Positions 29,540 to 46,496 of a stretch of 64,000 bases of DNA are shown here, piece after piece. The position numbers and the translations under genes are program-made. Source of the stretch: Bacteroides sp. 214 (GTDB lineage: Bacteria > Bacteroidota > Bacteroidia > Bacteroidales > Bacteroidaceae); contig NZ_QVML01000002.1 of the NCBI RefSeq assembly GCF_010501015.1, positions 248,001 to 312,000 on the forward strand, read 5' to 3'. The number at the start of each line of letters is the position of its first letter. Position 1 is the first letter of the stretch. Under the pieces are notes generated by a model. It saw nothing but the letters and a program-made list of their open reading frames with translations, was not told the DNA's origin and searched no databases.

Positions 29540-30136
29540 TTAGAGAATAATTACATCAGATCATTTGATAAAAAAGATAGAAAATACAAAGTTGTAGAAT
29601 AAGGCTCCTATTTATTAAACTCGAACCTATGAAAATAGAGCTTTTTTATCCTATCGAAAAGTATAGATAAGTGCAGAAAGGGTGGAGTTGAAAAGCATTA
29701 AATCCAAGATCAACAATAAATTACAAGATGGTTCTTCTTTTCGAGGTGGAATTGGAACGAAAAAAGGGTGGAGTTGCCAAGTATATAGCAAAATAATATG
29801 ATGTTAGTTGACTTGAAAAAAACGTGGAAAGAATTCTCTGAAATCCCTATAAGTAGTGATGATGAAATCGAACAAGATTTCTACTTTTGGGAGAAAGGAA
29901 CGTGTCGCTTTGATATTTGGCATTGGTTTGATGAAAAATTACCAGATGGAATAGCGGGGTGGATTGCATTATAGTATTATATTGGTGAGATCATATATAG
30001 TTTAAGCGAAATAACAGGCGAAATTATAACGTATACCAACAAAGGCATTTCCTCTTCTGATTACAAAAACAAATAGTACACCCATAATACACCCAATTAA
30101 ATGTAAACACCTGATAATCACAAGTGTTTTACATAA
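29540..30136. other. Gene-poor right end of island 1
   Basis: This stretch carries one small gene (29798-29974), two copies of AAAGGGTGGAGTTG (about 29678 and 29764) and, near 30070-30110, the gtacaccc/tacaccc motifs that resemble integrase arm sites. Nothing else is seen. Confidence 0.5.
29798..29974 (+). CDS. Small acidic protein with DIWHWFDE motif
   Basis: The frame encodes 58 residues, with a second ATG at 29801. The sequence FSEIPIS, an acidic stretch, then GTCRFDIWHWFDEKLPDG is a pattern I recall from small Bacteroidota proteins carried on mobile elements. The function is not known to me. It is acidic and Trp-rich. It is the only likely gene in the 860 bp between the receiver gene and the start of island 2. 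Confidence 0.6.
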   Translation: MMLVDLKKTWKEFSEIPISSDDEIEQDFYFWEKGTCRFDIWHWFDEKLPDGIAGWIAL

Positions 30137-30151
30137 TGTATAGGGAAATAA
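30137..30151 (+). other. Candidate attachment core (middle)
   Basis: TGTATAGGGAAATAA matches the mnmE 3' end at 12 of 15 positions and also encodes Cys-Ile-Gly-Lys-stop. It lies at the junction between islands 1 and 2. Nucleotide identity alone could arise by chance, so the call rests on position and coding match. Confidence 0.45.
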
Positions 30152-30404
30152 CGCCTTAGAATTAACTGTAAACAACGGTAATCAACCAGAAATAAGTCTC
30201 TCATTTTGAGGGACTTTCTTCGTTTTAACACTTGCCCATCACTTTTTGTTAGTACCCGTTTTTCACCCTATTTTCGTACCGTATTTCTACCGCGAAACAA
30301 TTTTGCGGTAAAGCCCGATGTCACACTGAGGCATTAGTTGACATGTGTTGACAATGGTTTACGTATGGTGACAGAAAGTAGGCGAAATTAAAACAAATAA
30401 TGGT
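30152..30404. other. Leader of island 2
   Basis: No gene. Besides the hairpin at 30194, it holds direct repeats of gttgaca at about 30338 and 30347 and a variant at about 30367, related to the GTTGAC motif of the island 1 iteron field. Confidence 0.4.
30194..30216 (+). terminator. Hairpin at the island junction
   Basis: Arms 30194-30203 and 30207-30216 pair with one mismatch and a very short loop, followed by a T-rich tract. It would insulate the two islands. Confidence 0.5.
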
Positions 30405-31277
30405 ATGGAAGTAAAGCGAACTTGCCAATGGTGTGGTAAAGTATTTATTGCCCAAAAGACGACAACGAAGTATTGTGGTCTTCAATGTGCACAGCGTAGT
30501 TATAAACAACGTGTACGTGAGAAAAGAGACGAACTAAAAAACAGTCAGGAACTCTTACGTCCTATTGTTGCTTTGGAGGGTCAGGATTACTTGACCTTTT
30601 CCAAAGTGGCAAGTCTGATGGGTACAAGCCGACAGTATATCTATAAGTTAGTAAAACAAGGCAAGCTACGCGCATCCAGATTGAGCGAAAGAATGTCCTT
30701 TATCCGCAGAGCAGATATTGAGCTAATGCTAAAATCTAAACCATACGAGCGCATTATACCCAAAGAAGAGATAAATATAGCAGAATATTACACCGCCGAA
30801 GAGATTGCAGAAAAATATAAAGTCAACACCAAATGGGTATGGACTTTTACCCGGCAAAACAAAATTCCCAAAACACGTATTCGAAAGTTCAATTATTATA
30901 GTAGAAAACATATTGATGCTGCTTTTGCCAAATATGAAGTTGATACAGAGTTATCCGAATGGTATACGCCCGAAGACATAGTAGAGAAATACGATATGAC
31001 TCGCAGTGCTATCCGAAGTCAAGTTTACCGGAACAATATCCCCTCCAAAAAAGAACATGGAAAGATATTTTACTCTAAATACCATTTCGACCTATCAAAA
31101 TCAGAAAGTCTATGTAAAGAGGAGTATTACTATACTGTGCAAGAAGCTATGGCAGAATTCCATTTAACAAGGGATGCCGTTTATGGAGTCCTGCGGTTTC
31201 ACAATATTGAAAGAATAAAAGCCGGCAGGTTCGTGAAGTTCCTCAAAATTGAATTTGATAAGGTAATGAGAACTTAG
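30405..31277 (+). CDS. Multi-HTH DNA-binding protein with N-terminal zinc finger
   Basis: The 290-residue protein starts with a treble-clef-like finger CQWCGKVFIAQKTTTKYC plus a following Cys. Three or four helix-turn-helix units follow: SKVASLMGTSRQYIYKLVKQG, AEEIAEKYKVNTKWVWTF, PEDIVEKYDMTRSAIRSQ and VQEAMAEFHLTRDAVYGV. Such proteins sit directly upstream of integrases in Bacteroidota elements and may act as recombination directionality factors or repressors. It reads toward the integrase, 121 bp away. Confidence 0.8.
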   Translation: MEVKRTCQWCGKVFIAQKTTTKYCGLQCAQRSYKQRVREKRDELKNSQELLRPIVALEGQDYLTFSKVASLMGTSRQYIYKLVKQGKLRASRLSERMSFIRRADIELMLKSKPYERIIPKEEINIAEYYTAEEIAEKYKVNTKWVWTFTRQNKIPKTRIRKFNYYSRKHIDAAFAKYEVDTELSEWYTPEDIVEKYDMTRSAIRSQVYRNNIPSKKEHGKIFYSKYHFDLSKSESLCKEEYYYTVQEAMAEFHLTRDAVYGVLRFHNIERIKAGRFVKFLKIEFDKVMRT

Positions 31278-31398
31278 AAAGGATAATAATATCTCTTTAA
31301 ATGATATAGAACTTATTCCCAAATGATAATTCTCAGCAAAACATCATTCAAGACCTTTACAACAACAATCAAGTATTAATTATAAAAAACAAGAAACT

Positions 31399-32514
31399 AT
31401 GTTCGAATGTAAAACTGTAACACTTAGAACTCGCCCCATCAAACATGGGCAATTATCTTTCTATCTGGACTATTATCCAGGCTATAGAGACAAAGAAACA
31501 ATGAAAGTAATCCGTCATGAGTCTTTAGGCATCTACATCTATGAGAAACCCAAAAACCGAAGGGAACGTGAATTTAACGAGCAAATGACCGAAAAGGCAG
31601 AAGCTATTCGTTGCCGCCGGTTCGATGCAATAGTTAACGAACGATATGACTTCCTCGACAAGAGTAAACTTAAAGGTGACTTTTTAGAATATTATCGCCG
31701 TCAGCTACGCAAGCATGACCAGAAATGGAAATTCGTCTATATCCACTTCAGTAATTTTGTAGGAGGTAAATGTATCTTTGAGGAAATAGACATCGACCTT
31801 TGTAATAGATTTAGAGAATACTTACTAACAGCCAAAAAGCTAAAGAGCAAAAAAGACACCATCTCTCAAAATTCTGCTGCCGGTTATTGGTCCACATTCC
31901 GGGGATTTCTCCAAGACCTGTATCACGCCAAGCTGATACGTAACAATATTAACGACTTCTTGGATAAAATCGAAACGGAAGATATTGACAAAGATTTCCT
32001 TACCCAACAAGAACTGTGCAAATTAGCAGAAACGCCATGCGATATACCCGTTTTGAAAACAGCTTCGCTATTTGCGTGTCTTACCAGTTTGCGTATCAGT
32101 GATATTTTGGCTTTACGATGGGAAAATATTCAGGACTACTACGATGGAGGCAAGTATGTAAAGATTATCACACAGAAAACGAAATCCATTGACACTATCC
32201 CTATCAGCAAGGAAGCATTGGAACTTATAGGTAATACTGGCGAGGGAATTATATTCAAAGGACTCAAACGTAGCATGACACAAGCACCAATGAAGAAATG
32301 GATAAAATCTGCTGGAATAACTAAAAACATCACATTCCATAGCTACCGTAGAACCTTTGCAACTTTGCAAGCAGCAGCCGGAACGGATATTATCACCATA
32401 GCCAGTATTATGACGCACAGAAGCATTTCTACCACTCAGCTCTATACAAAAACCGTTGATGCTAACAAGCGTAAAGCCTCTTCGAAGATCACGCTTAAAC
32501 GACAAGAAGAGTAA
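31399..32514 (+). CDS. Tyrosine-type integrase of island 2
   Basis: The 371-residue protein shares the architecture of the island 1 integrase but is clearly different in sequence. Catalytic residues are the Arg in TSLRISDI, HxxR in HSYRRT, a His in MTHRS and the Tyr in TTQLYTK. It should integrate and excise island 2. If both islands use the mnmE end, the two integrases converge on related cores. Confidence 0.92.
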   Translation: MFECKTVTLRTRPIKHGQLSFYLDYYPGYRDKETMKVIRHESLGIYIYEKPKNRREREFNEQMTEKAEAIRCRRFDAIVNERYDFLDKSKLKGDFLEYYRRQLRKHDQKWKFVYIHFSNFVGGKCIFEEIDIDLCNRFREYLLTAKKLKSKKDTISQNSAAGYWSTFRGFLQDLYHAKLIRNNINDFLDKIETEDIDKDFLTQQELCKLAETPCDIPVLKTASLFACLTSLRISDILALRWENIQDYYDGGKYVKIITQKTKSIDTIPISKEALELIGNTGEGIIFKGLKRSMTQAPMKKWIKSAGITKNITFHSYRRTFATLQAAAGTDIITIASIMTHRSISTTQLYTKTVDANKRKASSKITLKRQEE

Positions 32515-32683
32515 CAGGCACAAACAAATCAAAACAGATATCCTGAGTATGATTATGGGTATGATTTAGATGGGAACCATTTAATTAGTGTAAAGATTCT
32601 GTTGTTATTGAGAAGCAATAAGCATTAATTGGAACTATGCAGATAATTTTGTCTGACTATTTTAAATCCAATTACTTACAGTT

Positions 32684-33505
32684 ATGACTATCAAGGCAAC
32701 AGAATTTACACTATTTTGGCTTATGCCGAGTATTGCTTTTGGGAGTATCGCTTTATTAGCATCTTATGAAATTGGCACCGATTTCAATCACCATTGGCTA
32801 ATTGAATCTGGTGTCTTTCTTATTGTACTTTTTTTATTGCTAACCATTTATTGGCTACTACAAACAACATTTTCAGATATTTTCTTTTCGAAAGCAAGCC
32901 TCACTCTTCTTTCTCCTTCAACAGACAATGTGTCATCGAATCTTCAAGACATTAAAATACAGAAAAATACAAACGCTATTTCTGACACAAACTCCCCTAT
33001 TGATAATATTGTCAGCACTTGTCTGCATAAATCAATCTTGATAGAAAGTGAGAAACGCCAAAAAGCTAAATTGGATAAACAGAGAAGAACACTAATTCTT
33101 GTGGAATATACCAATGCAGTCCTGACCAACCACATGAAAAAGATTCATTTGGAAATCATTCTAAAAAATGTCAATCTGTTTGCCACATCACCCGAAGCCA
33201 ATTTTATTCCTATTGAGACGGATGGTTCTCTTAGCACGGCCGACCTTCGTCACTTCGCATGGAACATCGGTAAGAGATTGGGCTATGAGCGAATGATACA
33301 AGCTAAATTCATCAAACAATGTTTTCCTAAGGAATTTATGAACTGCGAACTGCCTACTATCATTCGCAATCTTTCGGATGAAGTCTCATCCATTATAAAA
33401 ATAGACAAACCCGATAAAGGAAGCTATGACTTTCATTGGGAAACAATAGGGCTTATCAACCCATTAGATATATCTTCTGACAATCCTCCAATGGAGGTAA
33501 CCTAA
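32684..33505 (+). CDS. Membrane protein of unknown function in the element backbone
   Basis: The 273-residue protein has two N-terminal transmembrane helices (about 8-28 and 42-62). A Ser/Asn-rich linker and a cytosolic helical domain (about 120-270) with ESEKRQKAKLDKQRRTLI follow. I recognise no named family. Proteins of this kind are seen in the backbone of Bacteroidota integrative elements between the integrase and the HTH/RepA pair. No function is claimed. Confidence 0.65.
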   Translation: MTIKATEFTLFWLMPSIAFGSIALLASYEIGTDFNHHWLIESGVFLIVLFLLLTIYWLLQTTFSDIFFSKASLTLLSPSTDNVSSNLQDIKIQKNTNAISDTNSPIDNIVSTCLHKSILIESEKRQKAKLDKQRRTLILVEYTNAVLTNHMKKIHLEIILKNVNLFATSPEANFIPIETDGSLSTADLRHFAWNIGKRLGYERMIQAKFIKQCFPKEFMNCELPTIIRNLSDEVSSIIKIDKPDKGSYDFHWETIGLINPLDISSDNPPMEVT

Positions 33506-33599
33506 ACTTATTTGGAAATGATTCCATGCTTATTCTAATCTTTGTATATCAGCATAAGGTCATTGAATTCCTTTACAGCGTTTACAAAAATAAATTATA

Positions 33600-33974
33600 A
33601 TGAAGAACGAATTAACATTCAACGACCTTCCAATGGTTGTAAAGGAACTCTGCAACAAGGTTGAGAGTTTAGAAGAGACGCTGTTAAAACAAGTAACAAA
33701 TCGGCCTGCTCCTATGTATGAAAATCGCCACACTCCAATGACTTCGGAAGAAGCTCGCGAGTATCTAAAGATGCCAAAATCAACTTTTTACTTCAAAGTA
33801 GGTAATGGTGAAATACCAGCCGTTAAGCAGGGTAAACGTTACTACCTTTACAAAGACGAACTGGAACAATGGTTGGAAACCGGAAGGAAAAATGCTCCTG
33901 CACTCTCTGCCGAAGAAATGAATGCTGCAACCTTGGCTTCTCACAAACGAAAACCTAACACTACAAACTATTGA
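33600..33974 (+). CDS. Excisionase-like HTH protein
   Basis: The 124-residue protein has a coiled N-terminus (about 10-35) and a MerR-like winged helix (about 43-90) with MTSEEAREYLKMPKSTFYFKV and RYYLYKDELEQWLETGRK. It belongs to the helix_turn_helix_17 type that directs excision or controls replication. The following ATPase gene starts within a few bases of its stop, so the pair is coupled. Confidence 0.85.
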   Translation: MKNELTFNDLPMVVKELCNKVESLEETLLKQVTNRPAPMYENRHTPMTSEEAREYLKMPKSTFYFKVGNGEIPAVKQGKRYYLYKDELEQWLETGRKNAPALSAEEMNAATLASHKRKPNTTNY

Positions 33975-33979
33975 AGTAT

Positions 33980-35056
33980 ATGGAATACGGAAGGGAAAGA
34001 AAGCCAATGAAACAAGAAGACGTCTGGAAACTATGGCAACAGTCAATTCTTAGCATTACTAGTAATTATGAAAAGGCTCCGGAAGTATTAAAAATAGACG
34101 ATATAGTAATCGGCACATTAGGTAATTTCAGCGCATCTATTGGTAAAGCCAAAAGCAAAAAAACATTCAATGTATCTGCAATTGTAGCTGCCGCCTTAAA
34201 AAACGGTATGGCATTGAATTATTCAGCCTCGTTTCCTGCCGATAAGTCGAATGTCATCTATATAGATACAGAACAAAGTCCCTATCATTGTTTAAAGGTA
34301 ATGAAGCGAATACTTCGACTGGCAGGTCTTTCTACAGAAGACAACCATCCTTATTTGCAATTTCTGGCATTACGCAAAAACACACCGGAAGAAAGAATAG
34401 CCATCATTGACGAAGCAATTTATAAAACAAACAATGTAGGATTAGTTGTCATTGACGGCATTAGAGATTTGGTTTACGACATTAATAGCCCTAGTGAATC
34501 GACCTATATCATTTCCAAACTTATGCAATGGACTGATGAGAAACAAATTCACCTTCATACCATCCTCCATCAGAATAAAGGAGATGAGAATGCAAGAGGA
34601 CATATCGGTACAGAACTAAGCAATAAGGCAGAGACCATTCTCCAAGTTGAAAAGGATAAGGCAGACTCAAACATCAGCAAAGTCGAAGCTGTTCACATTC
34701 GAGCAATGGACTTCAAACCGTTTGCTTTTCGTATCAACGAACAGGCATTACCTGAAATTGTAGAGAATTATGTAGTGGAGAAAACAAAAGTGGGTCGCCC
34801 GTCCAAAGATCCATTCGATCCATATAAGGAAATTAGGATAGAGCAGCATGAAAGGGCTTTAATATCTGTATTTGCGAGTAAGGAAGTTTATGGCTATGAA
34901 GAATTGCAGGAGGCACTGGTTGAAGCATACAATGATGCGGACTATCCTATCGGGCGTAATAAAGTCACTAAGGTTATCACATTCCTCAGGAATAAGCGAA
35001 TAATTCTGCAAGAAAATGGTAAGAAGTATTCACTCAACCCGAACAGGCATTACTAA
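33980..35056 (+). CDS. RepA-like AAA ATPase
   Basis: The start is placed at the ATG at 33980; a TTG at 33971 and an ATG at 34007 are alternatives. The RecA/RepA-type core has an unusual Walker A (GKAKSKKTF), the Walker B-like VGLVVIDGIRDLV and the DTEQSP motif. A winged-helix C-terminus follows the AT-hook-like VGRPSKDP. Related ATPases lie next to HTH proteins in Bacteroidota mobilisable elements and probably act as replicative helicases. A hairpin cluster follows, as expected for an origin. Confidence 0.75.
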   Translation: MEYGRERKPMKQEDVWKLWQQSILSITSNYEKAPEVLKIDDIVIGTLGNFSASIGKAKSKKTFNVSAIVAAALKNGMALNYSASFPADKSNVIYIDTEQSPYHCLKVMKRILRLAGLSTEDNHPYLQFLALRKNTPEERIAIIDEAIYKTNNVGLVVIDGIRDLVYDINSPSESTYIISKLMQWTDEKQIHLHTILHQNKGDENARGHIGTELSNKAETILQVEKDKADSNISKVEAVHIRAMDFKPFAFRINEQALPEIVENYVVEKTKVGRPSKDPFDPYKEIRIEQHERALISVFASKEVYGYEELQEALVEAYNDADYPIGRNKVTKVITFLRNKRIILQENGKKYSLNPNRHY

Positions 35057-35402
35057 GCCTAAACACTTTACTTTATTCCCTGTGCCTATATATTAAGATT
35101 AGCTAAAGCACTATCTTTAAATATGGATGGAGTTCCCAATTTGAGAGCTCCATTCATACACTTTTCACGTCAACTATACACGCAGCTTGCTGCCACTTTA
35201 GTGCCCTTTCCCATTGCAAATTTTGCAAATGGGGTATTAGGCTACCCCACTGATAAATCAGTGTGATATTGGGCAAGCCTCAATATGTTTCACTTGACCT
35301 ATTGAAATGTCATTCCCCATTGCACTACTTAATACGATAATTGTACCTTAAAGCCTTTTTTATAAATGGTATATTAATATAATTCTAAAAATAAATGATA
35401 AT
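35057..35402. other. Gene-free stretch between the RepA-like gene and the recombinase
   Basis: It contains an atggag/ctccat hairpin at about 35124-35151 and the hairpin cluster at 35211-35286. No coding frame of note is seen. A promoter for the recombinase is expected in the AT-rich last 60 bp, but no clear TAnnTTTG is visible. Confidence 0.5.
35211..35286. repeat. Cluster of four back-to-back hairpins
   Basis: Hairpins: 35211-35232 (CCATTGCAAA and its near complement), 35231-35248 (ggggta/tacccc), 35248-35263 (CACTGAT-AA-ATCAGTG, perfect) and 35266-35286 (atattgggc/gcctcaatat with one bulge). Such dense folding next to a RepA-like gene suggests an origin of replication or transfer. Confidence 0.6.
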
Positions 35403-36014
35403 ATGATCTACGGGTACATTAGAGTAAGTAGCGACAAACAAACTGTCGAGAATCAACGTTTTGAAATTAATAACTTTTGCGAACGTGAGAATATGAATAT
35501 TGATGGTTGGATAGAAGAAACCATTAGTGGCACCAAATCGTACAATAAACGAGAACTTGGCAGACTACTTAATAAAGTACAGAAGGACGACCTAATCATC
35601 TGTGCCGAACTTTCGCGTCTTGGGCGTAATCTCTTCATGATTATGGAGATCCTTAACATTTGCATGACCAAAGAGTGTCGTGTATGGACTATAAAGGATA
35701 ACTATCGATTGGGAGAAGACATTCAAAGTAAAGTTTTAGCTTTTGCCTTTGGTTTATCAGCAGAGATAGAGCGTAATCTTATCAGTCAAAGAACAAAAGA
35801 AGCTTTAGCAAGAAAAAAAGCAAATGGCATTGTATTAGGAAGACCAAAAGGAAAAAGAACTTCACCTGAAAAACATAAACTATTCCCCAAAAAGACACTC
35901 ATTATCGGACTGCTTAAAGAAAAAATATCTAAGCGGCAAATTGCTAAAATCTGTAAGGTAAACAGAAACACACTAGCACGCTATATCGCAGAAGTAATTG
36001 AAGTCGAAAAATGA
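35403..36014 (+). CDS. Hin-type serine recombinase (DNA invertase) of the methylase switch
   Basis: The 203-residue protein has the resolvase/invertase fold. Catalytic Ser is in YIRVSSDKQ; the family motifs ELSRLGRN and GLSAEIERNLISQRTKEAL are present. The C-terminal HTH is about 165-200 (ISKRQIAKICKVNRNTLARYI). It resembles the small invertases that flip promoters or gene segments in Bacteroides. Its TGA stop forms the first bases of the left 19-bp inverted repeat (36012-36030), so its own reading frame is unchanged by inversion. The silent recognition domain begins at the overlapping ATG (ATGA). Confidence 0.9.
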   Translation: MIYGYIRVSSDKQTVENQRFEINNFCERENMNIDGWIEETISGTKSYNKRELGRLLNKVQKDDLIICAELSRLGRNLFMIMEILNICMTKECRVWTIKDNYRLGEDIQSKVLAFAFGLSAEIERNLISQRTKEALARKKANGIVLGRPKGKRTSPEKHKLFPKKTLIIGLLKEKISKRQIAKICKVNRNTLARYIAEVIEVEK

Positions 36015-36895
36015 GCGTTTTTGTGGAGCAGCACTATTCTGTTTGTGACTTTTCAGAAGGTGCATCTTGGACCATTCTTTCGCCCATCGAACAAAGTATA
36101 AAGCGAAAAATTGAATCCGTAGGCACACCACTTAAAGATTGGGACATTAACATTTATCGTGGTGTACTCACAGGCTATAATGAGGCTTTTATTATTTCGA
36201 CAGAGAAAAGAGACGAAATACTAGCCAATTGCCAAACAGAAGATGAAAAAATGAGAACTGCTGAAATTATACGACCAATTTTGAGAGGCAGAGATATAAG
36301 GAGATATGGCTATAACTGGGCAAACCTTTGGCTTATCAATACACACAATGGGACAAAGGAAAAGTTTCCTCGTATCCTTATAGAGGATTATCCTGCTCTA
36401 AAGGCTCATTTAGACCAGTATTTGGACAAAATTTCGAAACGTGCAGATCAAGGGGATACTCCTTATAATCTGCGTAACTGCGCTTATTTGGAGGATTTTG
36501 ATAAGCCAAAAATTATATATCCAAATATGACTAAATATATGCCATTTGTTTATGATGAGGACAAATTTGTAACAAACCAGAAGTGCTTTATTATAACAGG
36601 TCAAAATATGGCATATCTTACAGCATTCTTTAATTCATCCATATTCAAATTCTGTTTCCGAGACTCATTTCCAGAACTACAAGGCGGAACAAGAGAATTG
36701 AGTAAAATATTCTTTGATAAGATTCCTGTTAAAAAAATTTCAGGTGAATCAGATGAGCTTTTTAAGACTGCTATTAATCGGTTGCAATCAGATTATACAA
36801 AAGAGCAAACAATAGTTATTGACAACATGTTATTTGATTTGTATGACTTGACTGTAGAGGAACGCAAAGTTATTGGAAACATTGAGATTAAATAA
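36011..36895 (+). CDS. Silent alternative target-recognition domain of the Eco57I-type methylase
   Basis: The 294-residue frame has no methylase catalytic motifs and no ribosome site of its own. It matches residues 796 onward of the active methylase: SWTILSPIEQSIKRKIESVG, then ILANCQTEDEKMRTAEIIRP and ILRGRDIRRYGYNWA are shared almost fully. The remaining 190 residues differ strongly, apart from the TaqI_C-like frame (CFIITGQNMAYLTAFFNSS, KIPVKK). This is the pattern of a stored specificity cassette. After inversion the methylase would be about 1088 residues with this domain. As it stands it overlaps the recombinase stop (ATGA) and may be untranslated. Confidence 0.88.
   Translation: MSVFVEQHYSVCDFSEGASWTILSPIEQSIKRKIESVGTPLKDWDINIYRGVLTGYNEAFIISTEKRDEILANCQTEDEKMRTAEIIRPILRGRDIRRYGYNWANLWLINTHNGTKEKFPRILIEDYPALKAHLDQYLDKISKRADQGDTPYNLRNCAYLEDFDKPKIIYPNMTKYMPFVYDEDKFVTNQKCFIITGQNMAYLTAFFNSSIFKFCFRDSFPELQGGTRELSKIFFDKIPVKKISGESDELFKTAINRLQSDYTKEQTIVIDNMLFDLYDLTVEERKVIGNIEIK
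36012..36030 (+). repeat. Left inverted repeat of the methylase switch
   Basis: The 19-bp repeat overlaps the recombinase stop codon and the silent domain's ATG. Its exact inverted copy is at 38226-38244. Confidence 0.9.
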
Positions 36896-36899
36896 GTGA

Positions 36900-37257
36900 A
36901 ATTTTCTTCAATCTATTTTCTTCATGGGATAAGTTGTATAGGTCGAAAACTTGCAACTTATCTTGTTTTCATTTTTTATTGAACTACGATAAACCAATTC
37001 TGTTAGATCCTTTTCAAATTCTAAGTTCCGCTTATTGGTTATTATAGGTATTTTAAAAGGTCTAACAGTTTACACAATTATTAGTAAATCGCCTCTTCCC
37101 ATTCTATATGCATCTTTAAGAAGGTAATGCCCCATAAAAGAATTTAGTTGCACGCAAAAGACTAGTTTTATATTGTTACCTATTGCAAAACATTTGCAGT
37201 CAAACTCTAATACCTCATTGTTATTATAACAAAATCGAAGAATAAAATCTTTTTGAG
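36900..37257 (-). pseudogene. Decayed third target-recognition domain
   Basis: Read on the minus strand from about 37257, the frame gives KDFILRFCYNNNEVLEFDCK, CFAIGNNIKLVF, QLNSFMGHYLLKDAYRMGRG and DLLIIV. A stop follows (about 37077), then the frame continues TVRPFKIPIITNKRNLEFEK. This has the order of TaqI_C-type recognition domains (CFxI...LNSxxxxYYLK...GrGdLl...fkIPi). It lacks its N-terminal half and is interrupted by a stop. It suggests that the cassette once held another specificity module. Confidence 0.55.
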
Positions 37258-37280
37258 CTTAGAGAAATCCTTATATATCC

Positions 37281-37321
37281 ATTGTTCGACAAACATTGCA
37301 ACACAACACTTATCGAACAAT
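37281..37321 (-). terminator. Hairpin downstream of the methylase gene
   Basis: Arms attgttcga at 37281-37289 and tcgaacaat at 37313-37321 are perfect complements with a 23-nt loop. It lies just past the methylase stop codon, inside the invertible segment. Confidence 0.45.
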
Positions 37322-37330
37322 GATATTCAT

Positions 37331-40300
37331 TTATAAGTTCTGTCGATTCAGATAATCGATTTCGTCTTTTGTAAATTCAAATATGTCATATATTATACGT
37401 TGTAATTCTTCCATTTTTTCTTTCGTAAAGGTTTTTAGCAATTCTCCTGCCGCGTCTGACACAATATTATATTGGGGGCTGGGTTTTGGTATGGGGAATA
37501 TAATAATATTTTGAGCCCCAACCTGAGCATCTCCAACTCCAGTTTTATTCATATTGGTAATTTCACTATACCATATAAGAGGAGAAGAGTTTAGAAAAGC
37601 CAGAATATGGTTCAAGTAATCTCCTGTCATTAAGTAGCACGCATTATTGACAACATGCCCTTTTGTCTCTACAGTAAAAGCAAGTTTACTTCCAATGATT
37701 TTCCATATGAGTTTTGGCTTATCAAAATCCTCCCAATAACTGATACTATCCTGAGTTTCAAACCACTTGTTGTTAGTTTTTTTACGAGCCTTCACTTTCT
37801 CACCATTAACGATATGAGTCTTGCCAGTTTGCTCTAGCCTTTCAATACCAAAAGTCAAGAGGTAGTTTTTTACTGCAGGATATTGTTCTATATCGTAATG
37901 ACGAGAAGGATATGTTGCAATCAGATACTTCTCAGCCCAGTTATAGCCATATCTCTTTATATCTCTGCCTCTCAAAATTGGTCGTATAATTTCAGCAGTT
38001 CTCATTTTTTCATCTTCTGTTTGGCAGTTAGCGAGTATTTTTTCTCTTTTATTTGTATCAATAATGAAAGCATCATTAAAACCAGTCTTTATACCATAGT
38101 TGATTTTGATATCCCAATTTTTCAATGGTACACCTACAGCTTCTATCTTACATTTAATACTTTGTTCAATAGGTGATAGAATTACCCATGAATTTGAACT
38201 ATCAAAACGGCAAGAGTTACCACATTGCTCCACAAAAACGCTCAAATGTTTTATGCTATCTTTAGCTTGTTTATTCGTTACTGCGCAAACCGTTTTGTAT
38301 CTATTTTTTGATTTGCAAAACAATAATATATTGGTATCTACAGTTGCGCTCTCAAAAATTTTCACACCAGCAAAATCTATCAGTAATTTGGGATCTGTTT
38401 TTTTTGCAAAAAAGGTACGAGTCTTTTCTCCGTATCCAGCACGCATCCATTTATTAGAAGTAATATAACACAAATGCCCATTTGGTTTCAACAGTTGCCA
38501 ACCGCGCTCGTAAAAAAGGCAATAAATATCACCAGTACGAGCAAACACCTCAAAGTTGCTGTTTTCATAAAGAGCTGCAATCTCGCCTCCATTGTTCTGT
38601 AACTGTATATACGGCGGATTACCAATGACAATATCAAAACCATTACAACCATTCTGCTGATTAAAAACATCACTAAAATAAGTATGCCAGAGAAAGAATT
38701 TATCATTAGGTATATCAAGATTATCAACAGCTTCAACAACAGACGGAATATAGCCTGAACAAATCTTTATATGCTCTTTTACAGCACATTCAATATTCTT
38801 TCTAATCTCTGCTTTTACAGAATGATTGCTTTCACTGAAATATTGCTTTAAGTAAATTTGAATATTTCTTTTTGTATCAGTTTCATCAAACATTAGTGAT
38901 ACTTGCCCTCTATTTTTCTTTGCAATAGTTTGCACACTTTCCGTCAATGTAGAAAGATCGTAACCCATAAAGCTTTCAAGCAAAGAATTCCCCTGCATAA
39001 TCTTATAATCCAGATTTGGCAATGAGTGTGGTGTTTCTTCTTCCACTATCAGCGACAGCCAAAAGCGTAGACGCGCTATGTCTACTGCACCTCGCTCTAT
39101 ATCTACACCATATATATTGTGCTGAATGATATGACGTTTTATGTCTGCTGCATCACTAAAACATTCTATTGCACCACGACACAAGAACAACTCTTTGAGC
39201 AAGCCCATGGGGAATGCACCTGAGCCAATGGCCGGGTCGCATATCTTCACATCTTTCAACCTATTATCCAACATCATAGCTAGTTCAGAATCAGCTCCAC
39301 CAATTTCTGCTACATCGTATGTATTCACAAATTTGTCGACAGCAGTCTTAGTTTGTTCATCCGTTATATCTGTTTGTAGATAAGCTATGAGCGATTGACG
39401 ACACATATACTGTACAATCTCTTTCGGCGTGTAGAAAGCCCCTTTATCTTTGTTGTCCTCTAATAAGTTCTCAAAGATACGCCCCAGCATCTCTGGGTCT
39501 ACACCCACTTGCGCGTCATTAGGGTCATTTTCGTCTATAGTAAAATTATACTGATAGAAAAACTCAAATAAATCTGCAAAATACTTTGCTGGAAATTGTG
39601 ATGCAGGCTCATCAAGCAAATCACGTTCGAACAGACCACCATTGAGGTAAGGTATCTTCACTACTGAACTATGTTCAAGAGCGACACCTGTATCAAACAA
39701 GTATTCGCTACCTTTACGGTCACTATCAAGTGCACCAGTAAAAAGAGGCTCCAAGACTTCGTCAAGAAAATTTGCCTTTTGTTCACTGGTAGACCTTTCA
39801 AACAGATGTTTCATGAAGTTGGTATCACCCTCACCCCACTGTTTATCTTTAGGTACACCCATCCAACCTTTCTTTTGTAAGAAATGCAAGAATACAATGC
39901 GTCCTAGTAGTTTTTTCACATAGTCACGAATAGGCTTTTCCTCACGATCTCTGATAGTTTCGTCAGTCATTCCGCTTTTGTCGAAAGAAGTATCAATAAA
40001 GTCCTTACGCATTCCGTTCGACTCGTCACACATATAGTCTACAAAACGTCGATAATGTTGCTTGTATTTTCCAAAGAATTCCTTAGATAGAGCCTCCACA
40101 TCAAATGCAGCCTCTATATCTTTCAATTCTATGTCGCCATGCTTTTGCAGAAGTTTTCCGAAATTCTCTGACGCAGTGCGACATGATTGATTAGGGCCAA
40201 GCAAGAACGTATAACGTTTAGAATCAGTAATTTCATCATTGCTTCCACGTTTACTGCAAAATGTAAAACGCCAGTCCCAACTCAGTGTATCTTCATAATG

Positions 40301-40627
40301 AAATATCATAAATGCACTAGAATAAGTGTTCATTATACGTCGCACCAACTGCTGAATAGCTACACGATTACGCACCATTTGCACATGATCAGTAACGGTT
40401 ATATCATAAATATCTATAGGGTTAAACTCCACCTGTATAGTACCTACACGGCATACTGATGTTATCCCCGTACTTGCTGCTACAGCTGCCAACTCCGGGT
40501 TCTCTTCGAGCAATGAAGCATTGAAGCCGTCATCGAAGTTATCTTGTCCAAAAATAGGAAACACCACTTCTTGCAGAAATGATTCACCACCTTGATATGG
40601 CTTCTGAAAATATTCTTTGAATTCCAT
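37331..40627 (-). CDS. Eco57I-type N6-adenine DNA methyltransferase with switchable C-terminus
   Basis: The 1098-residue protein has a long N-terminal region (about 1-390) without a recognised nuclease motif. The methylase core then has GAFYTPKEIVQYM (397), motif I DPAIGSGAFP (464) and the catalytic NPPY (670-673). The C-terminal recognition region starts near 780 and contains SPIEQSIKCKIEAVG and RPILRGRDIKRYGYNWA. It should methylate adenine in a target set by the C-terminus. Codons 795-801 hold the right inverted repeat, so everything from Ser796 onward is exchangeable. The gene follows the helicase gene by 17 bp. It resembles the class I methylases of DISARM and PglX-like proteins of BREX, but their other partner genes are absent here. 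Confidence 0.9.
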   Translation of the reverse strand: MEFKEYFQKPYQGGESFLQEVVFPIFGQDNFDDGFNASLLEENPELAAVAASTGITSVCRVGTIQVEFNPIDIYDITVTDHVQMVRNRVAIQQLVRRIMNTYSSAFMIFHYEDTLSWDWRFTFCSKRGSNDEITDSKRYTFLLGPNQSCRTASENFGKLLQKHGDIELKDIEAAFDVEALSKEFFGKYKQHYRRFVDYMCDESNGMRKDFIDTSFDKSGMTDETIRDREEKPIRDYVKKLLGRIVFLHFLQKKGWMGVPKDKQWGEGDTNFMKHLFERSTSEQKANFLDEVLEPLFTGALDSDRKGSEYLFDTGVALEHSSVVKIPYLNGGLFERDLLDEPASQFPAKYFADLFEFFYQYNFTIDENDPNDAQVGVDPEMLGRIFENLLEDNKDKGAFYTPKEIVQYMCRQSLIAYLQTDITDEQTKTAVDKFVNTYDVAEIGGADSELAMMLDNRLKDVKICDPAIGSGAFPMGLLKELFLCRGAIECFSDAADIKRHIIQHNIYGVDIERGAVDIARLRFWLSLIVEEETPHSLPNLDYKIMQGNSLLESFMGYDLSTLTESVQTIAKKNRGQVSLMFDETDTKRNIQIYLKQYFSESNHSVKAEIRKNIECAVKEHIKICSGYIPSVVEAVDNLDIPNDKFFLWHTYFSDVFNQQNGCNGFDIVIGNPPYIQLQNNGGEIAALYENSNFEVFARTGDIYCLFYERGWQLLKPNGHLCYITSNKWMRAGYGEKTRTFFAKKTDPKLLIDFAGVKIFESATVDTNILLFCKSKNRYKTVCAVTNKQAKDSIKHLSVFVEQCGNSCRFDSSNSWVILSPIEQSIKCKIEAVGVPLKNWDIKINYGIKTGFNDAFIIDTNKREKILANCQTEDEKMRTAEIIRPILRGRDIKRYGYNWAEKYLIATYPSRHYDIEQYPAVKNYLLTFGIERLEQTGKTHIVNGEKVKARKKTNNKWFETQDSISYWEDFDKPKLIWKIIGSKLAFTVETKGHVVNNACYLMTGDYLNHILAFLNSSPLIWYSEITNMNKTGVGDAQVGAQNIIIFPIPKPSPQYNIVSDAAGELLKTFTKEKMEELQRIIYDIFEFTKDEIDYLNRQNL
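37935..38025 (-). repeat. 91-bp near-identical inverted repeat with 36231-36321
   Basis: The active methylase (37935-38025, minus) and the silent domain (36231-36321, plus) share 90 of 91 bases, covering the residues around CQTEDEKMRTAEIIRPILRG. The flanking parts of the two domains are far less alike. Confidence 0.85.
38226..38244 (-). repeat. Right inverted repeat of the methylase switch
   Basis: An exact inverted copy of 36012-36030, located inside the methylase coding region at codons 795-801. Confidence 0.9.
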
Positions 40628-40644
40628 AGTTGATATTATTTTTA

Positions 40645-43600
40645 TTATTTACTCAGTGCCATATATGTTATGGCTTTACCATAACGCATCTGTACATTTG
40701 CTACTATTTTTTGTATTTCTTGATTCAATACAGTGTCAAATTCTTCTTGGCTAAGTTCAAAGAGTGTGCCGCCGCTTTGAGTGCGAATATCATCAAGTGC
40801 AATTATCTTTTTGATGATGTCATAATTCCCTTTATTCACTAACATGAATGCAGATGATAAAAGGCTGCGCGACTCCTTAGACATTGAGATAGTGTCTTTC
40901 ATCTTTATGATTATCTCTTTAGCTTTTGTGGCTTTTTTCGAATTCTTTGCGTGAATATTCATTTTAGCAAGTGCTTGATTTACAAATAATTCGGCTTTTA
41001 ATTTACATTTTTCCCAATCTGCCGGAAGGGTATCCGAAGGTACATCATCATCAGTGCGGAATGCTTTGTAAGCGTCAATACTGGAAAGAATACTACTTTT
41101 TAGTTCAGCATCTACTTTTACAAATAGCCCGGAAGTCTGCTTATTGCGAACAAGAAAATAGCTACTTCCATCTGTTGGTGCAATTGCTAATTCCAGTCCA
41201 TCTTCCATTGCCACTATTTGTTCAAAGCGTTCAGGGTGAGTACGTTTATATTCTTTCAGTTCAAACACGTATTTTTCCATTGGAGACTCCTCACCATTTA
41301 TCTGCTTATTTAGGTCATATTGCATTACTTCCTCATTTTCTGTGAATACCTGGTTATCTTCGCCAAACAAAGTATGGAATGATTGTAGCTTGGTATAAGC
41401 TTTCTGTACAAGCTTTATTTGTTCATCTCCTTGCAAACTTGGCATAAAATTATAAACATACACATACGACGCGATAGAACCAATGCGGTTCACGCGCCCT
41501 ATACGCTGCATCAGCCGAGTGGAGTTCCAAGGAGTATCATAGTTCAATACACAATTGGCGCGGTGTAAATTTACACCTTCTGCCAACACCTCAGTAGTCA
41601 CGATTACCTGATAATCATTACGCCATTCACCCTTATAGTTGGCATCGAAGTTCTCAGCAATAATCTTTGTGTTCTCATCTCTATTTTTTGCAGTTATTAC
41701 AAGTACCTTCAGAGAGTTATCAGTGGTTTCTATAGCAAGTTTTATAGCCTTCACTGTATCTATCGCCTCACTAAATATAACCAATTTTTGTGCTATATTC
41801 TGTTGTTTATCAAAGAGTGTACTTCGTAATTTCTTTTTAAATTCTTCTAATTTCGGATCGTTGCTGTAAGCATTCCACCGTTTACAAAGGAATTCTATTA
41901 GCTGTAAATCTTTGCGCAACAATTCTATATACTCTTGCATAAAATCATCACGAGTAAGTTCACGGTTACGTTCCTTCTCATTTTTACCTTTTTTGTTAAG
42001 TTTCTCTATACGGGAGCGTATATCATTGGCGCATTCGGAAAATGTATACAACTTGCCAGTACGTTCGTAGTCCTTTTCTCGGTCAAGTTCCTCATTTACG
42101 TTAATGTCAGGACACACAAAAATGGTATTATGTTCCCACATATCGATCATATTCTGAGTATAGCGACGTAAATTCTCAAGTGAAGATTTGAATGCTGAGA
42201 AACTGCTTTCTATTCTTTTCACCAAATTAATTTGCATAATCTTAGCCAACTGTTGTGAGAAACGGTCCGCATCCATATTTTTCCCCTTATACAGAGCCTT
42301 CACTTCGGGAGATTTAATGAATTCTATAGCACGATAACGGTAGTAACATAGAAAATTACTGTTATCGAAGCGAAAATCTTCGGTAGGTGCTATCAGGTTC
42401 ATTGTATCAGCAAAAAGTTTTGCTAATCCACTTTCCATCTGATATTCAATAGAGTGAGGTCCACTAATCTTTGGAAAAACAATTTTTTGCCTACCGACGT
42501 CATCCTTGTAATATTTCTCCACATCAGTACGTGTACGACGCACTAAAATATCTTGAAGAACACAGTCACGTATCTCACCTGACAAACGTTTAAGCTCCAT
42601 TCTGCGCTCTTCAGAAGTCATATCATTAGGCATATTACCATCATTCATTTGTCCAGAAGATTTTATCACTTGCCCAAATCGACGGTTAATGTCGGAAAAG
42701 AAGCCTTCAAGGTTTCCGCCATTAGCCTTTTTCAAGGTGCTGTCGGCATGGTTGCGCTCAAACAAATATATCTGGTTTTGTATATCAGATGGACGGTTAT
42801 TTTGTGGCGTAGCTGAGAGCAATCCTATATATGGATAAGCACCTGTACTAGCTCCTATCTGTGTTATCAAATCATCCAGTGCTTTATACATTGAAGTACT
42901 ACTATTACGAAACTTATGACTTTCATCTATGATGATCAAACCATAATCTTTATACTCGAAATCAGAAGAAAAAACACAGGAATCAATCTCGTCAAAATCA
43001 GCTTCATCCATATCATCAACAAGCTTACCTATACTTCCTGTCGTAATATAATCGATAGCCGAATCCATTTTATCTACATTGTCTGCATCAAACAGTTTTA
43101 CGGTTTCTTTCCATCCTGACTGAATGGCAGGAGGAGTTACAACAAGTACTTTACGCTCACGACCATCATCATCAGGCATTCTTAGAAAGTGTTTCATTAT
43201 AAGTGTTCCTACAATGGTTTTGCCTAACCCCACAACATCTGCCAACATAAAGCCACCGTGTTCTCTCATAATGGAAAAACACTGTTTTACTGCCTCTATC
43301 TGATACGCCAACGGATCAAAGCTTTTTGGAAGATAACTCTCTATCAACTGCTGCTGGTTCATATCAACAATGCTACCGAACTTATATTGTAGGAGCTTAA
43401 TGTACAATTCATAAGGTGTCAACTTTACGACCACTTTTGCATCCTCTTCTGCTTTCACTCTTACAGGTGCGCCTCTCAATATTTCTTCAAGGAATGTTTT
43501 ATTCCAAGGTATTGATAAATTCCATTTCTCATCAAACCAACAGTTATGTCCTTTTGTATATGAATACTCATTTGGTACAGCTGTGACTCGACTTGTATCT

Positions 43601-44133
43601 GTTTCCAAATAATTCAATTCCGAATTGCCTTCTAATCCCTTTTGAGTAAAATTACTACTGCCAATAATACCAACAGCATAATTTTGTCCGCAAAAAACAT
43701 AACATTTTGCATGAAAGAATTGAGCATCACCATCTTCATTCTTTTTGTAAATACGGATTTGAAATCTGCTTTCATCCTCTTTTTCCTTACAATATTCTAG
43801 AAGCAAGCGCACAACCTCTACATATTTATCAATCACTTCAAGTTGTTGTATATCCCTCTTGATATAATCTTGTGGGAACTTCGCATCTTTACAAATAGGA
43901 TTAGCTAATTGATTTTGACGTACAATTGGATCAGCCCCTATCAGTAGCTGAAGAGTTGTTCCCTCTTTTTTTAGAAATTCTTTCAACTCATTATAAACCA
44001 AAAAAGTGCCAGGAATATCCCAATATCCTGTTGCTATTTTTATAGTCTTACAATTGGCATTGGTTATACACTCTTTAATAGTGTTGACTAACCTCAAGCA
44101 TTCATCTGAATTATCAATAAGAGTATTCGTCAT
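40645..44133 (-). CDS. PLD-nuclease/SNF2-helicase fusion protein
   Basis: The 1162-residue protein has an N-terminal phospholipase-D-type domain (about 1-180) with FHAKCYVF (His141, Lys143) and IGSSNFTQKG followed by NSELN. The SNF2/HepA helicase part has Walker A VGLGKT (302-307), DESH (403-406), SATPQNN (440-446) and motif VI QRIGRVNRIG (876-885). It is expected to translocate on DNA and may cut it through the single PLD domain, which could act as a dimer. It is 33 bp downstream of the AbiEii-like gene and 17 bp upstream of the methylase, so it is probably the restriction component of the system. Confidence 0.88.
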   Translation of the reverse strand: MTNTLIDNSDECLRLVNTIKECITNANCKTIKIATGYWDIPGTFLVYNELKEFLKKEGTTLQLLIGADPIVRQNQLANPICKDAKFPQDYIKRDIQQLEVIDKYVEVVRLLLEYCKEKEDESRFQIRIYKKNEDGDAQFFHAKCYVFCGQNYAVGIIGSSNFTQKGLEGNSELNYLETDTSRVTAVPNEYSYTKGHNCWFDEKWNLSIPWNKTFLEEILRGAPVRVKAEEDAKVVVKLTPYELYIKLLQYKFGSIVDMNQQQLIESYLPKSFDPLAYQIEAVKQCFSIMREHGGFMLADVVGLGKTIVGTLIMKHFLRMPDDDGRERKVLVVTPPAIQSGWKETVKLFDADNVDKMDSAIDYITTGSIGKLVDDMDEADFDEIDSCVFSSDFEYKDYGLIIIDESHKFRNSSTSMYKALDDLITQIGASTGAYPYIGLLSATPQNNRPSDIQNQIYLFERNHADSTLKKANGGNLEGFFSDINRRFGQVIKSSGQMNDGNMPNDMTSEERRMELKRLSGEIRDCVLQDILVRRTRTDVEKYYKDDVGRQKIVFPKISGPHSIEYQMESGLAKLFADTMNLIAPTEDFRFDNSNFLCYYRYRAIEFIKSPEVKALYKGKNMDADRFSQQLAKIMQINLVKRIESSFSAFKSSLENLRRYTQNMIDMWEHNTIFVCPDINVNEELDREKDYERTGKLYTFSECANDIRSRIEKLNKKGKNEKERNRELTRDDFMQEYIELLRKDLQLIEFLCKRWNAYSNDPKLEEFKKKLRSTLFDKQQNIAQKLVIFSEAIDTVKAIKLAIETTDNSLKVLVITAKNRDENTKIIAENFDANYKGEWRNDYQVIVTTEVLAEGVNLHRANCVLNYDTPWNSTRLMQRIGRVNRIGSIASYVYVYNFMPSLQGDEQIKLVQKAYTKLQSFHTLFGEDNQVFTENEEVMQYDLNKQINGEESPMEKYVFELKEYKRTHPERFEQIVAMEDGLELAIAPTDGSSYFLVRNKQTSGLFVKVDAELKSSILSSIDAYKAFRTDDDVPSDTLPADWEKCKLKAELFVNQALAKMNIHAKNSKKATKAKEIIIKMKDTISMSKESRSLLSSAFMLVNKGNYDIIKKIIALDDIRTQSGGTLFELSQEEFDTVLNQEIQKIVANVQMRYGKAITYMALSK

Positions 44134-44166
44134 AACATTTTCGTTTCGTTAGATTTTACATATTCA

Positions 44167-45171
44167 CTAAGAATGAAACATTCTTTCAAGTTCCTTCATT
44201 TGCGTTATGAGAGATTCAAACGTAGGAGCTTCTCCATAAATCATCGCCAGACGCATATCGTTATAGTCTTGTTCCCAAATATCCATCAAGGATTTGTGTG
44301 GAACAAGACAGATACGCCTACGGATGTCAGGAGTATAATCAACGCCATTCACATGAGTAAAACATTCACGGTGATGATGGATAGTCGTCCATAATTCATT
44401 ATTAGAAACAGCATTCAATGCTATCTCTGTTTTCATCATCATTGCCAAGTCATAAAGATGACGCGACTTTCTATTCGCATCACTCATAGAGGTTACTGAA
44501 AACAACTCATGCAACAAGAAAGCCTTTTCCAAAAATGTCTTTTCGGCAAGAGCCGTCGGTATGGCAACTGTCTGAATGGTTGTTTCAATTGGAAGGTATT
44601 GCTCTACAATACTCTTCACTTCTGCTTTAGAGGTAGGTTCCAATAAAGAACGAGAACCAATCTCCAATTTGACTTCTGAATGCAAGTACGGTAGTTCAGT
44701 ATCGAATAAAGAATAGTAACGAATATGTATGACACGTGGTTCCGGGTAGGTATTGTCACCCTCTCCATCAGGATCAGCCTCTATTGACAACCATTTATCC
44801 AAATCATTTTCCACAACTGCCGATTTCAAAGATTGGCACAATTCATCACGGACAAATACAGATGAACACTTTCTGAGACGTTTGATTTGCTTCTTTGTCA
44901 AATCACCTTCAAATCCCCAGATAGACGGATCTATAGCCAAATCTATATCTTCAGAAAAGCGTTGAATAATGTTCCACACTTTACTCAAAGAAGTGCCGCC
45001 TTTAAACACCAAATGTTTTGCTATTGGCAAAGAGAATACGATTTGAAGCATCGTTGTTACCCACAAGTCTTTTTCAATGGCTTGAACCGGAAGCCCGGTT
45101 TTATTGGCAGCTTGCGTAATGACCATTATTTGCTGATCGGTGGTAAGCAAGAAGTAGTTATTCATAGGCAT
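44167..45171 (-). CDS. AbiEii/AbiGii-type nucleotidyltransferase toxin
   Basis: The 334-residue protein has the DNA polymerase-beta-like motif VFKGGTSLSKVW (residues 55-66) and the metal-binding RFSEDIDLAI (71-80), which define AbiEii. Type IV toxins of this family add nucleotides to RNA such as tRNA acceptor ends and stop growth on phage infection. Its start overlaps the upstream antitoxin gene by 14 bp. It is the second gene of the four-gene defence operon. A second start (Met3) is possible. Confidence 0.88.
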   Translation of the reverse strand: MPMNNYFLLTTDQQIMVITQAANKTGLPVQAIEKDLWVTTMLQIVFSLPIAKHLVFKGGTSLSKVWNIIQRFSEDIDLAIDPSIWGFEGDLTKKQIKRLRKCSSVFVRDELCQSLKSAVVENDLDKWLSIEADPDGEGDNTYPEPRVIHIRYYSLFDTELPYLHSEVKLEIGSRSLLEPTSKAEVKSIVEQYLPIETTIQTVAIPTALAEKTFLEKAFLLHELFSVTSMSDANRKSRHLYDLAMMMKTEIALNAVSNNELWTTIHHHRECFTHVNGVDYTPDIRRRICLVPHKSLMDIWEQDYNDMRLAMIYGEAPTFESLITQMKELERMFHS

Positions 45172-45763
45172 TTTTTATAATCGTTCTTATCCAAGCAGGC
45201 ATCAATGACGCATCCGCCATCACTTTTTCTTTTGATTCTTTCTCTAATATCTGTTTAAGTTGGGCTATCTGCGACTCTGTTATCTTATCTTGTCCCAGTT
45301 CTTTTAAGGCAAAGGTAACAAGCATCGCCAATTTATTTGTAAAAGCTAAATTCTTGGGCGATGTAAATCGGAATTGAATAGATTTACCATTTCCAAGATT
45401 GATTTTCCGCCTTGTTCCATCAGTCAGATAAACAAAGTTCATGGGAATTTGAGTAGAGAGTCCCAACTTATTGAGCGCATGAATTCCCGTAGGCACTATT
45501 CTCGCCTTATCACGCCGGGCAATACTATCGGCTATTTCTTCAATGGAAGGATAGAGCACCCCCAGTCCCATTATCTTATCTTGCTTAGGATAACAATAGA
45601 TACCTCTTGCTAATCGAAGAATCTGATTCTTTTCTGTTAGCCGTTCCAGAGCTTTACCTATGCTCTTAGGTTCGCCAAAGTCAATAAAATCATTGGGGAA
45701 AAAGATAGCTCCTTCTCCTTTTGCTCTTATCACTTCTATTATCTTATCTTCGATACTCATCAT
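45158..45763 (-). CDS. AbiEi-like antitoxin (DUF6088-type)
   Basis: The start is taken at the ATG at 45763; 45760 is an alternative. A longer frame to 45808 would run through the promoter. The roughly 200-residue protein begins with a winged helix (IEDKIIEVIRAKGEGAIFFP, then KALERLTEKNQILRLARGIY), the DNA-binding domain of AbiEi/DUF6088 antitoxins. The C-terminal domain contains PTGIHALNKLGLSTQIPMNF. It should neutralise AbiEii and repress its own promoter, thereby also controlling the helicase and methylase genes. Confidence 0.85.
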   Translation of the reverse strand: MMSIEDKIIEVIRAKGEGAIFFPNDFIDFGEPKSIGKALERLTEKNQILRLARGIYCYPKQDKIMGLGVLYPSIEEIADSIARRDKARIVPTGIHALNKLGLSTQIPMNFVYLTDGTRRKINLGNGKSIQFRFTSPKNLAFTNKLAMLVTFALKELGQDKITESQIAQLKQILEKESKEKVMADASLMPAWIRTIIKNAYE

Positions 45764-45779
45764 ACAACTCGCTTTGTCG

Positions 45780-45787
45780 CAAAAGTA
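45780..45787 (-). promoter_or_regulatory. Promoter of the four-gene defence operon
   Basis: The minus strand reads TACTTTTG at 45787-45780. The start of transcription would lie only about ten bases before the ATG at 45763, giving a very short leader. Confidence 0.6.
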
Positions 45788-45917
45788 ACACATTTTTTCG
45801 ACAAACAAGTTGAAATTGTCATTTCATTCTATTTTATGGGTTGGGTCTCTGACTCTCTATTCTAATAAATCGACTTTACTTTATTGTCGCACTCTATATA
45901 TACGATATATTAAAATA

Positions 45918-45960
45918 AAGGTAGGGAAGAAAGATAAAGAATAGTTTTCTTCCCTACCTT
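45918..45960. terminator. Strong hairpin upstream of the defence operon
   Basis: Arms 45918-45932 and 45946-45960 are perfect 15-bp complements (AAGGTAGGGAAGAAA and its complement) with a 13-nt loop. Confidence 0.65.
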
Positions 45961-46196
45961 CAAAACCAGAAATTTGTAAAGCATACACGTAATATCATCC
46001 ACTACCTAAGCGATATTAGTGGAGAAATCTCTACCCTCAGAGAGATCGATTCGTTAATGAAAAATAAAAACGTTAAAAGTGAGCGTTTTAACACACAGGA
46101 ACAAGGAAATTTTCTAACTTTCTACCTTTTAAAGACCAATACAATGAATGCCAACAAGTTATATATGCTGTATCGGCAAATAGATACTGATTAACA
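45945..46196 (+). pseudogene. Fragment of an unknown gene at the island edge
   Basis: An open frame runs through the region and ends at a TAA at about 46194-46196. It includes KHTRNIIHYLSDISGE, ISTLREIDSLMKNKNVKSER and FLTFYLLKTNTMNANKLYML. An internal ATG at 46056 gives 46 residues. The composition looks protein-like but no family is recognised. It overlaps the attachment-like core in another frame, so it may be the truncated end of a gene broken by insertion. Confidence 0.35.
46169..46183 (+). other. Candidate attachment core (right)
   Basis: TGTATCGGCAAATAG matches the mnmE 3' end at 13 of 15 positions and encodes Cys-Ile-Gly-Lys-stop. By rough count such a match is expected about 0.05 times by chance in a 30-kb stretch on both strands. 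Confidence 0.5.
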
Positions 46197-46224
46197 ACGA
46201 TTATAAAACATATACTATTGATTA

Positions 46225-46251
46225 AATCGGCTGATTATCAGTCGATTTTTT
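46225..46251 (+). terminator. Intrinsic terminator after the right core
   Basis: Arms 46225-46234 and 46238-46247 pair with one mismatch, with a T-run at 46246-46251. It could once have ended mnmE transcription. Confidence 0.6.
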
Positions 46252-46471: not shown

Positions 46472-46479
46472 TATCTTTG
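46472..46479 (+). promoter_or_regulatory. -7 element TATCTTTG of the ATPase gene
   Basis: It lies 17 bp before the ATG at 46497. A Shine-Dalgarno-like aaaggaag precedes that ATG. Confidence 0.6.
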
Positions 46480-46496
46480 CAAAAAAAGGAAGAAAT

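Follow-up and report, generated by a model that had tools for sequence, protein, structure and literature searches.

The stretch of DNA considered here, 64 kb of contig NZ_QVML01000002.1 of Bacteroides sp. 214 (hereafter the window), carries a gene for a serine recombinase of the Mpi family, a gene for an N6-adenine methylase on the opposite strand, and a segment of 2233 bp whose ends form a perfect inverted repeat of 19 bp, which links the stop codon of the former gene to residue 795 of the latter (Table 1). Two target recognition domains (TRDs) lie convergently within this segment, TRD-A being fused to the methylase and TRD-B unfused. The methylase gene is directly preceded, on its own strand, by a gene for a helicase with phospholipase D (PLD)/HKD and SNF2 domains.

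Table 1. Features of the putative switch and of the surrounding island, in positions of the window (aa, amino acids)
Feature	Position	Strand	Evidence
Mpi-family serine recombinase, 203 aa; TGA stop coincides with bases 1-3 of the left arm	35403-36014	+	NF009949 6.7e-102; Resolvase PF00239 5.4e-34
Left arm of the inverted repeat (19 bp) and likely site of crossover	36012-36030	+	Exact repeat and site searches
Right arm of the inverted repeat (19 bp), within the methylase gene at codon 795	38226-38244	-	Exact repeat and assembly search
Likely invertible segment, 2233 bp	36012-38244	.	Repeat geometry, in-silico inversion
Eco57I-type N6-adenine methylase, 1098 aa, core residues 1-795, NPPY at 670-673	37331-40627	-	PF07669 1.8e-41; PADLOC REase_MTase_IIG 1.7e-180
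TRD-A, module currently fused to the methylase (residues 796-1098)	37331-38242	-	TaqI_C PF12950 2.8e-08
TRD-B, unfused alternative module, 294 aa, ATG overlaps recombinase stop	36011-36895	+	TaqI_C PF12950 8.4e-15; 41% to methylase C-terminus
70-bp exact inner inverted repeat, TRD-B copy	36230-36299 (partner 37957-38026)	+	
22-bp exact inner inverted repeat, TRD-B copy	36490-36511 (partner 37712-37733)	+	
PLD/HKD and SNF2-type helicase, 1162 aa, likely restriction subunit	40645-44133	-	PF13091, PF00176, PF00271; PADLOC C3a139 HKD+Snf2
Island common to Bacteroides sp. GM023 and B. reticulotermitis	30137-46184	.	Identity to GM023 97.2% (30137-36074) and 98.6% (38226-46184)
Tyrosine integrase, inside the island	31399-32514		
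AbiE pair, inside the island	44167-45808		

The first-pass annotation of this DNA had claimed a perfect inverted repeat between the recombinase end and the methylase gene, and the two arms are indeed 100% complementary, with 2195 nt between them. They are the sole matches to the site in the whole window at up to three mismatches (shuffles lead one to expect 0.02), and its sole occurrences in the 3.39-Mb assembly of the strain at up to two. By itself the length of the repeat is merely modestly unusual, the longest inverted repeat in Markov simulations (60 of 10 kb) having a mean of 14.3 and a maximum of 18 against the 19 observed. Chance is excluded because one arm coincides with the stop of an invertase gene and the other with the seam between two homologous modules, the site is unique in the assembly at up to two mismatches, and the arrangement recurs in relatives. 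When the segment was inverted by script, the methylase went from 1098 to 1088 aa, ending in TRD-B, and the recombinase remained at 203 aa, unaltered; the exchange of 303 residues for 293 behind a constant 795, and the survival of the recombinase frame by virtue of a TGA within the repeat, both came out as annotated. TRD-A then becomes the unfused frame, of 304 aa, again opened by an ATG overlapping the recombinase stop. The repeats lie within reading frames, and these frames are kept on flipping, which is one mark of a programmed gene-altering inversion.

The recombinase scores 339.4 bits against the Mpi model of NCBIfam (NF009949, family cut-off 272), and among solved structures a DNA invertase matches it best, across residues 1-191 of its 203; of its previous label, a Hin-type recombinase, the serine invertase stands and the family is corrected to Mpi. 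The Mpi recombinase of B. fragilis, of the same family, inverts at least 13 regions scattered across the genome, according to passages of PMC5903667. A master invertase of this kind acts at many dispersed sites, whereas in the present strain the two occurrences of the site (the 19-bp sequence alone was searched) mark one segment only. The further claim of a second recognition domain in opposite orientation and in a frame ready for fusion is borne out: TRD-B matches the methylase C-terminus over 306 columns (41% identity, E 1e-64), and the frames hold in the scripted inversion. Residues 1-105 of TRD-A are 73% identical to TRD-B; beyond, identity is 24% and 21%. The seam lies well past the catalytic motif, as the position of NPPY indicates. 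An N6 methylase and a C-terminal TRD in one chain, as found here by Pfam and PADLOC, characterize Type IIG enzymes; Pfam calls no nuclease domain in the methylase chain, and the HKD domain sits in the partner protein.

We propose that the adjacent recombinase inverts the segment, that its two modules are alternatives for one methylase, and that inversion would exchange the fused module and with it the predicted methylated DNA motif. We regard this reading as very probably correct. The recombinase presumably recognises the 19-bp repeat, inversion is expected to take place in the strain, and TRD-A and TRD-B would read different motifs. The HKD/SNF2 partner may cut unmethylated DNA, so that a flip would alter phage restriction, and effects on gene expression are conceivable.

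Two lines of evidence support recombinase-driven inversion as the best reading of the specificity switch that the first-pass annotation had put forward. First, relatives of the locus occur in both states. Three protein searches (best 120 matches each, two yielding mostly stand-alone modules and one methylases) gave 359 distinct proteins, which by seam motif comprise 112 stand-alone, 127 fused and 120 unclassed. Among the matches listed, seven of the 112 stand-alone TRDs have a fused twin that is 100% identical over all 288-309 residues; fused twins at ≥99% exist for 15, in six clusters at 90%, and at ≥90% for 57. The twins differ exactly at the seam, which reads M/MK-S.FV.Q in the stand-alone and NL-S.FV.Q in the fused form; examples, each given with the length of its longest contig, are P0136 (39,575 bases) with P0285 (213,944) and P0200 (49,523) with P0305 (138,666). 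A search of relatives for the flipped state, as earlier suggested, thus returned identical modules fused and unfused, and with them the complete Lactococcus plasmids pJM1F (L205) and pUCCL629A (L206), relatives of the system and not of the strain, which carry the same recombinase accession with the modules swapped. From the seam repeat on, the active module of pJM1F equals the reversed pUCCL629A module at 99.2% over 496 nt, and the reciprocal comparison gives 85% over 535 nt; the exact seam repeat measures 22 bp in pJM1F and 12 bp in pUCCL629A. Swapped positions judged across species by TRD similarity were discarded, the pairs being merely 56-66% alike and too distant to use. One genome of the host's genus (G002) and Bacteroides pyogenes DSM 19673 have identical modules.

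Secondly, a mixture of orientations would make contigs fork at the repeat, and some contigs do end on repeated sequence. The recombinase was searched in 16 genomes, most of them picked for a contig end soon after the methylase core, and nine pairs of core and recombinase contigs were compared. In four of these the terminal sequence of the core contig is found again at the recombinase, over 19 nt in GM023, 41 in Porphyromonas bennonis, 99 in L071/L150 and 30 in L023/L151 (which has a likely second seam type, described below), and in the latter three both contigs terminate at the same base. In GM023 the core contig stops with the final base of the 19-bp repeat, and the recombinase contig runs 44 nt beyond the repeat, into TRD-B. 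A database contig of 2277 bp holds TRD-B from the repeat on, with no start codon (P0003), plus TRD-A (P0121); its length equals 2233 plus 44 and fits a contig of the segment with a 63-base overlap. This contig presumably belongs to GM023 and begins at the repeat.

The arrangement, which the first-pass annotation did not know as a described system, is no one-off: it recurs in Bacteroidota, Treponema, Akkermansia and Lactococcus. Among 80 genome loci with relatives of the methylase core (the best 80 of at least 579), 23 have a recombinase of ≥50% identity in the flank, one of them a fragment; L075, at 32%, was excluded. A survey of 24 loci, the window included, took in the four longest inverted repeats per locus, and at least ten of the loci show an exact inverted seam repeat of 13-134 bp starting no more than 31 nt from the core end.

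However, the proposed inversion should be viewed with some caution, since several observations weigh against it. The strain's own assembly shows a single orientation, the recombinase contig of GM023 has the same orientation as the window, and five of the nine contig pairs have no recurring end of the kind described, one of them sharing 14 nt. The fused and unfused twins stem from different assemblies, and hence place both states in nature without showing a switch within one clone. Most of the segment is deleted in the B. reticulotermitis copy, and confidence in the structure models is moderate (pLDDT, the predicted local distance difference test, is 67 for the methylase, with a predicted template modelling score of 0.59, and 63 for TRD-B alone). 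Lastly, the 70-bp and 22-bp inner repeats, which are absent from the first-pass annotation and exceed the 19-bp arms in length, could let homologous recombination swap modules without the recombinase.

The single orientation and the B. reticulotermitis deletion could also mean that the cassette used to invert and has since become locked in this strain, as would be in keeping with two Lactococcus plasmids, pUCCL635A (L209) and pLLUC147A (L210), in which close relatives of the Lactococcus methylase and helicase have no annotated recombinase or spare module alongside and which are possibly locked forms. We consider such a fossil improbable, the frames being intact in both orientations and both arms perfect. 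The B. reticulotermitis copy itself (L006, 12383-13245) is decayed, with a gap from about module residue 84 to the recombinase end that truncates the methylase, and may reflect an assembly error.

Nested inverted repeats are also present at SpnIII of the pneumococcus. In P0099, pieces of two parents form an exact mosaic (B 2-104, A 82-178, B 172-305), both crossovers falling within the inner blocks; this protein could be an assembly chimera. Of the 359 proteins, 302 are divisible at these blocks, and 11 of 21 first-half clusters pair with two or more second-half clusters; in 659 protein pairs one half is ≥97% alike and the other below 50%, many pairs repeating the same event among close relatives. 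The module identity between pJM1F and pUCCL629A likewise stops at the second inner block. Judging from the mosaic, the combinations of half-clusters and the Lactococcus identity break, half-module exchange is real on an evolutionary scale. The new element here is that each module is built of two halves, which have recombined independently of each other in the course of evolution.

From the length of the inner repeats, the P0099 mosaic and the 659 pairs it might be argued that RecA-type homologous recombination or gene conversion at these repeats does all the swapping, and that the 19-bp repeat is a mere conserved coding seam. Crossovers at the inner repeats would not yield fused and unfused twins that are identical right up to the seam, and both the break of the GM023 core contig at the end of the 19-bp repeat and the finding that 27 of 97 distinct related recombinases abut the seam speak against this explanation, which we find highly improbable. 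(Phage and IMG/VR matches entered for this seam count only, and the decayed L006 was left out.)

Recombinase-driven inversion leaves the role of the spare module to be considered. In both orientations the frame of the unfused module opens with an ATG sharing bases with the recombinase stop (ATGA), a feature absent from the first-pass annotation, and at 19 of the 27 abutting seams an in-frame ATG overlaps or directly follows that stop. The module might consequently exist as a free protein whose translation is coupled to that of the recombinase, and act in trans as a competitor or specificity subunit. We judge this unlikely. The ATG can be a by-product of stop codons adjoining TGAGC, and in the model of TRD-B alone residues 1-59 fall below a pLDDT of 50. 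Moreover, the seam ATG is not universal, since eight of the 27 have no ATG before the seam (three have TTG, one has CTG, and the remaining four have others, although a GTG lies in frame farther upstream in one of the four). Early counts of 8/8 and of 12 of 13-14 had indicated a conserved feature, a claim dropped on the wider set, and the Met starts of 110 of the 112 stand-alone proteins were rejected as evidence because gene callers choose starts. The constant frame offset in all 27 seams is probably inheritance. Outside the 27, nine loci have a TRD match on the same strand just 3' of the recombinase and no seam by pattern. A more elaborate engine of two layers, in which the recombinase flips modules at the 19-bp seam and the inner repeats exchange halves of the fused module with those of the spare one to give at least four specificities per locus, the spare module also being translated, is a tentative idea that we think rather doubtful.

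The family also contains variants of the layout. In ten other loci (L011, L013, L015, L016, L017, L021, L033, L045, L050 and L068), to which the contig pair L023/L151 may be added, a methylase-core match lies 3' of the recombinase, on its own strand, and starts -73 to +38 nt from its stop. In the six of these ten loci whose available DNA reaches this place, the reading there is GFDI, next to NPPY (GFDIVIGNPP). The exact repeats that the place shares with the core reach 18-57 nt in five of the ten, the partner in L021 lying beyond the matched core; in the remaining five they are 10-14 nt long, as chance would give. This looks like a second seam, situated in the catalytic domain, and the exchanged cassette would likely carry NPPY plus the recognition domain. 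In Prevotella nigrescens (L207, NZ_CP082843.1) two short Eco57I-domain genes and a gene for an ATP-binding protein stand between recombinase and methylase, a layout as in a multi-cassette shuffler. The switch is present twice in the GM023 genome: a diverged copy, with its own 25-bp seam repeat, lies on contig C2 (L148).

The locus is a member of a widespread family of HKD/SNF2 helicase, methylase and recombinase, here on a mobile island. This island is 86-91% identical to that of B. reticulotermitis over most of its length, with nearly equal ends. A comparison of 29701-30400 with 45901-46700 revealed no exact direct repeat of ≥12 bp, and a near-identity search of the island segment against plasmid records gave no match. 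Near the island, at 23838-26607, the window holds an HpaII-type restriction-modification pair, a 572-aa Vsr-C5 methylase fusion followed by an HpaII endonuclease; at 5293-5474 on the minus strand lies a Bacteroidales small signal recognition particle RNA adjoining a tRNA-Thr gene.

Several known systems resemble parts of this locus. The best fold matches of the methylase model are BrxX/PglX (8c45) and CamA, with M.BseCI, MmeI, BpuSI and DrdV also found, all at low TM-scores (template modelling). Phase-variable pglX loci exist. Membership in BREX was nevertheless rejected, the methylase scoring 89.7 bits as PglX against an NCBIfam cut-off of 500 and no PglZ or BrxC being found among the 12 proteins scanned in or beside the island (30405-47663); DISARM was rejected as well, with DrmD at 132.8 bits against 610 and a helicase that matches the DrmA/DrmD models weakly. 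Type-2 BREX-related systems share the HKD-SNF2 helicase and N6 methylase, and differ in carrying DUF499 and DUF3780 (PMC12839542), neither of which was found among the 12 proteins scanned; the text of that paper has no match for 'invert' or 'recombinase'. Excerpts of PMC4948785, PMC4190663, PMC11096450 and PMC11892184 describe Type I hsdS loci (SpnIII in the pneumococcus, and others in Mycoplasma and Bacteroides) in which recombinase-linked inversion of specificity modules alters the methylome. The likeness to the present locus is in this inversion; as far as those excerpts go, the hsdS loci use a separate S subunit and a tyrosine recombinase, whereas here a single-chain methylase is joined with a serine recombinase.

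Our search of the literature available to us found no description of this arrangement. Programmed inversions that switch restriction-modification specificity are already known. A survey by Milman, Yelin and Kishony (2023, Nucleic Acids Research) treats gene-altering programmed inversions of the same general kind, and its abstract reportedly lists Type II restriction-modification systems among the newly predicted targets.

In conclusion, if the proposed inversion is correct, a mobile defence island would give clonal bacteria subpopulations with differing methylation and phage barriers, and would do so with a serine recombinase and a single-chain methylase in place of a Type I S subunit. The exchange of half-modules, in turn, supplies natural chimeras for learning how such recognition domains read DNA.

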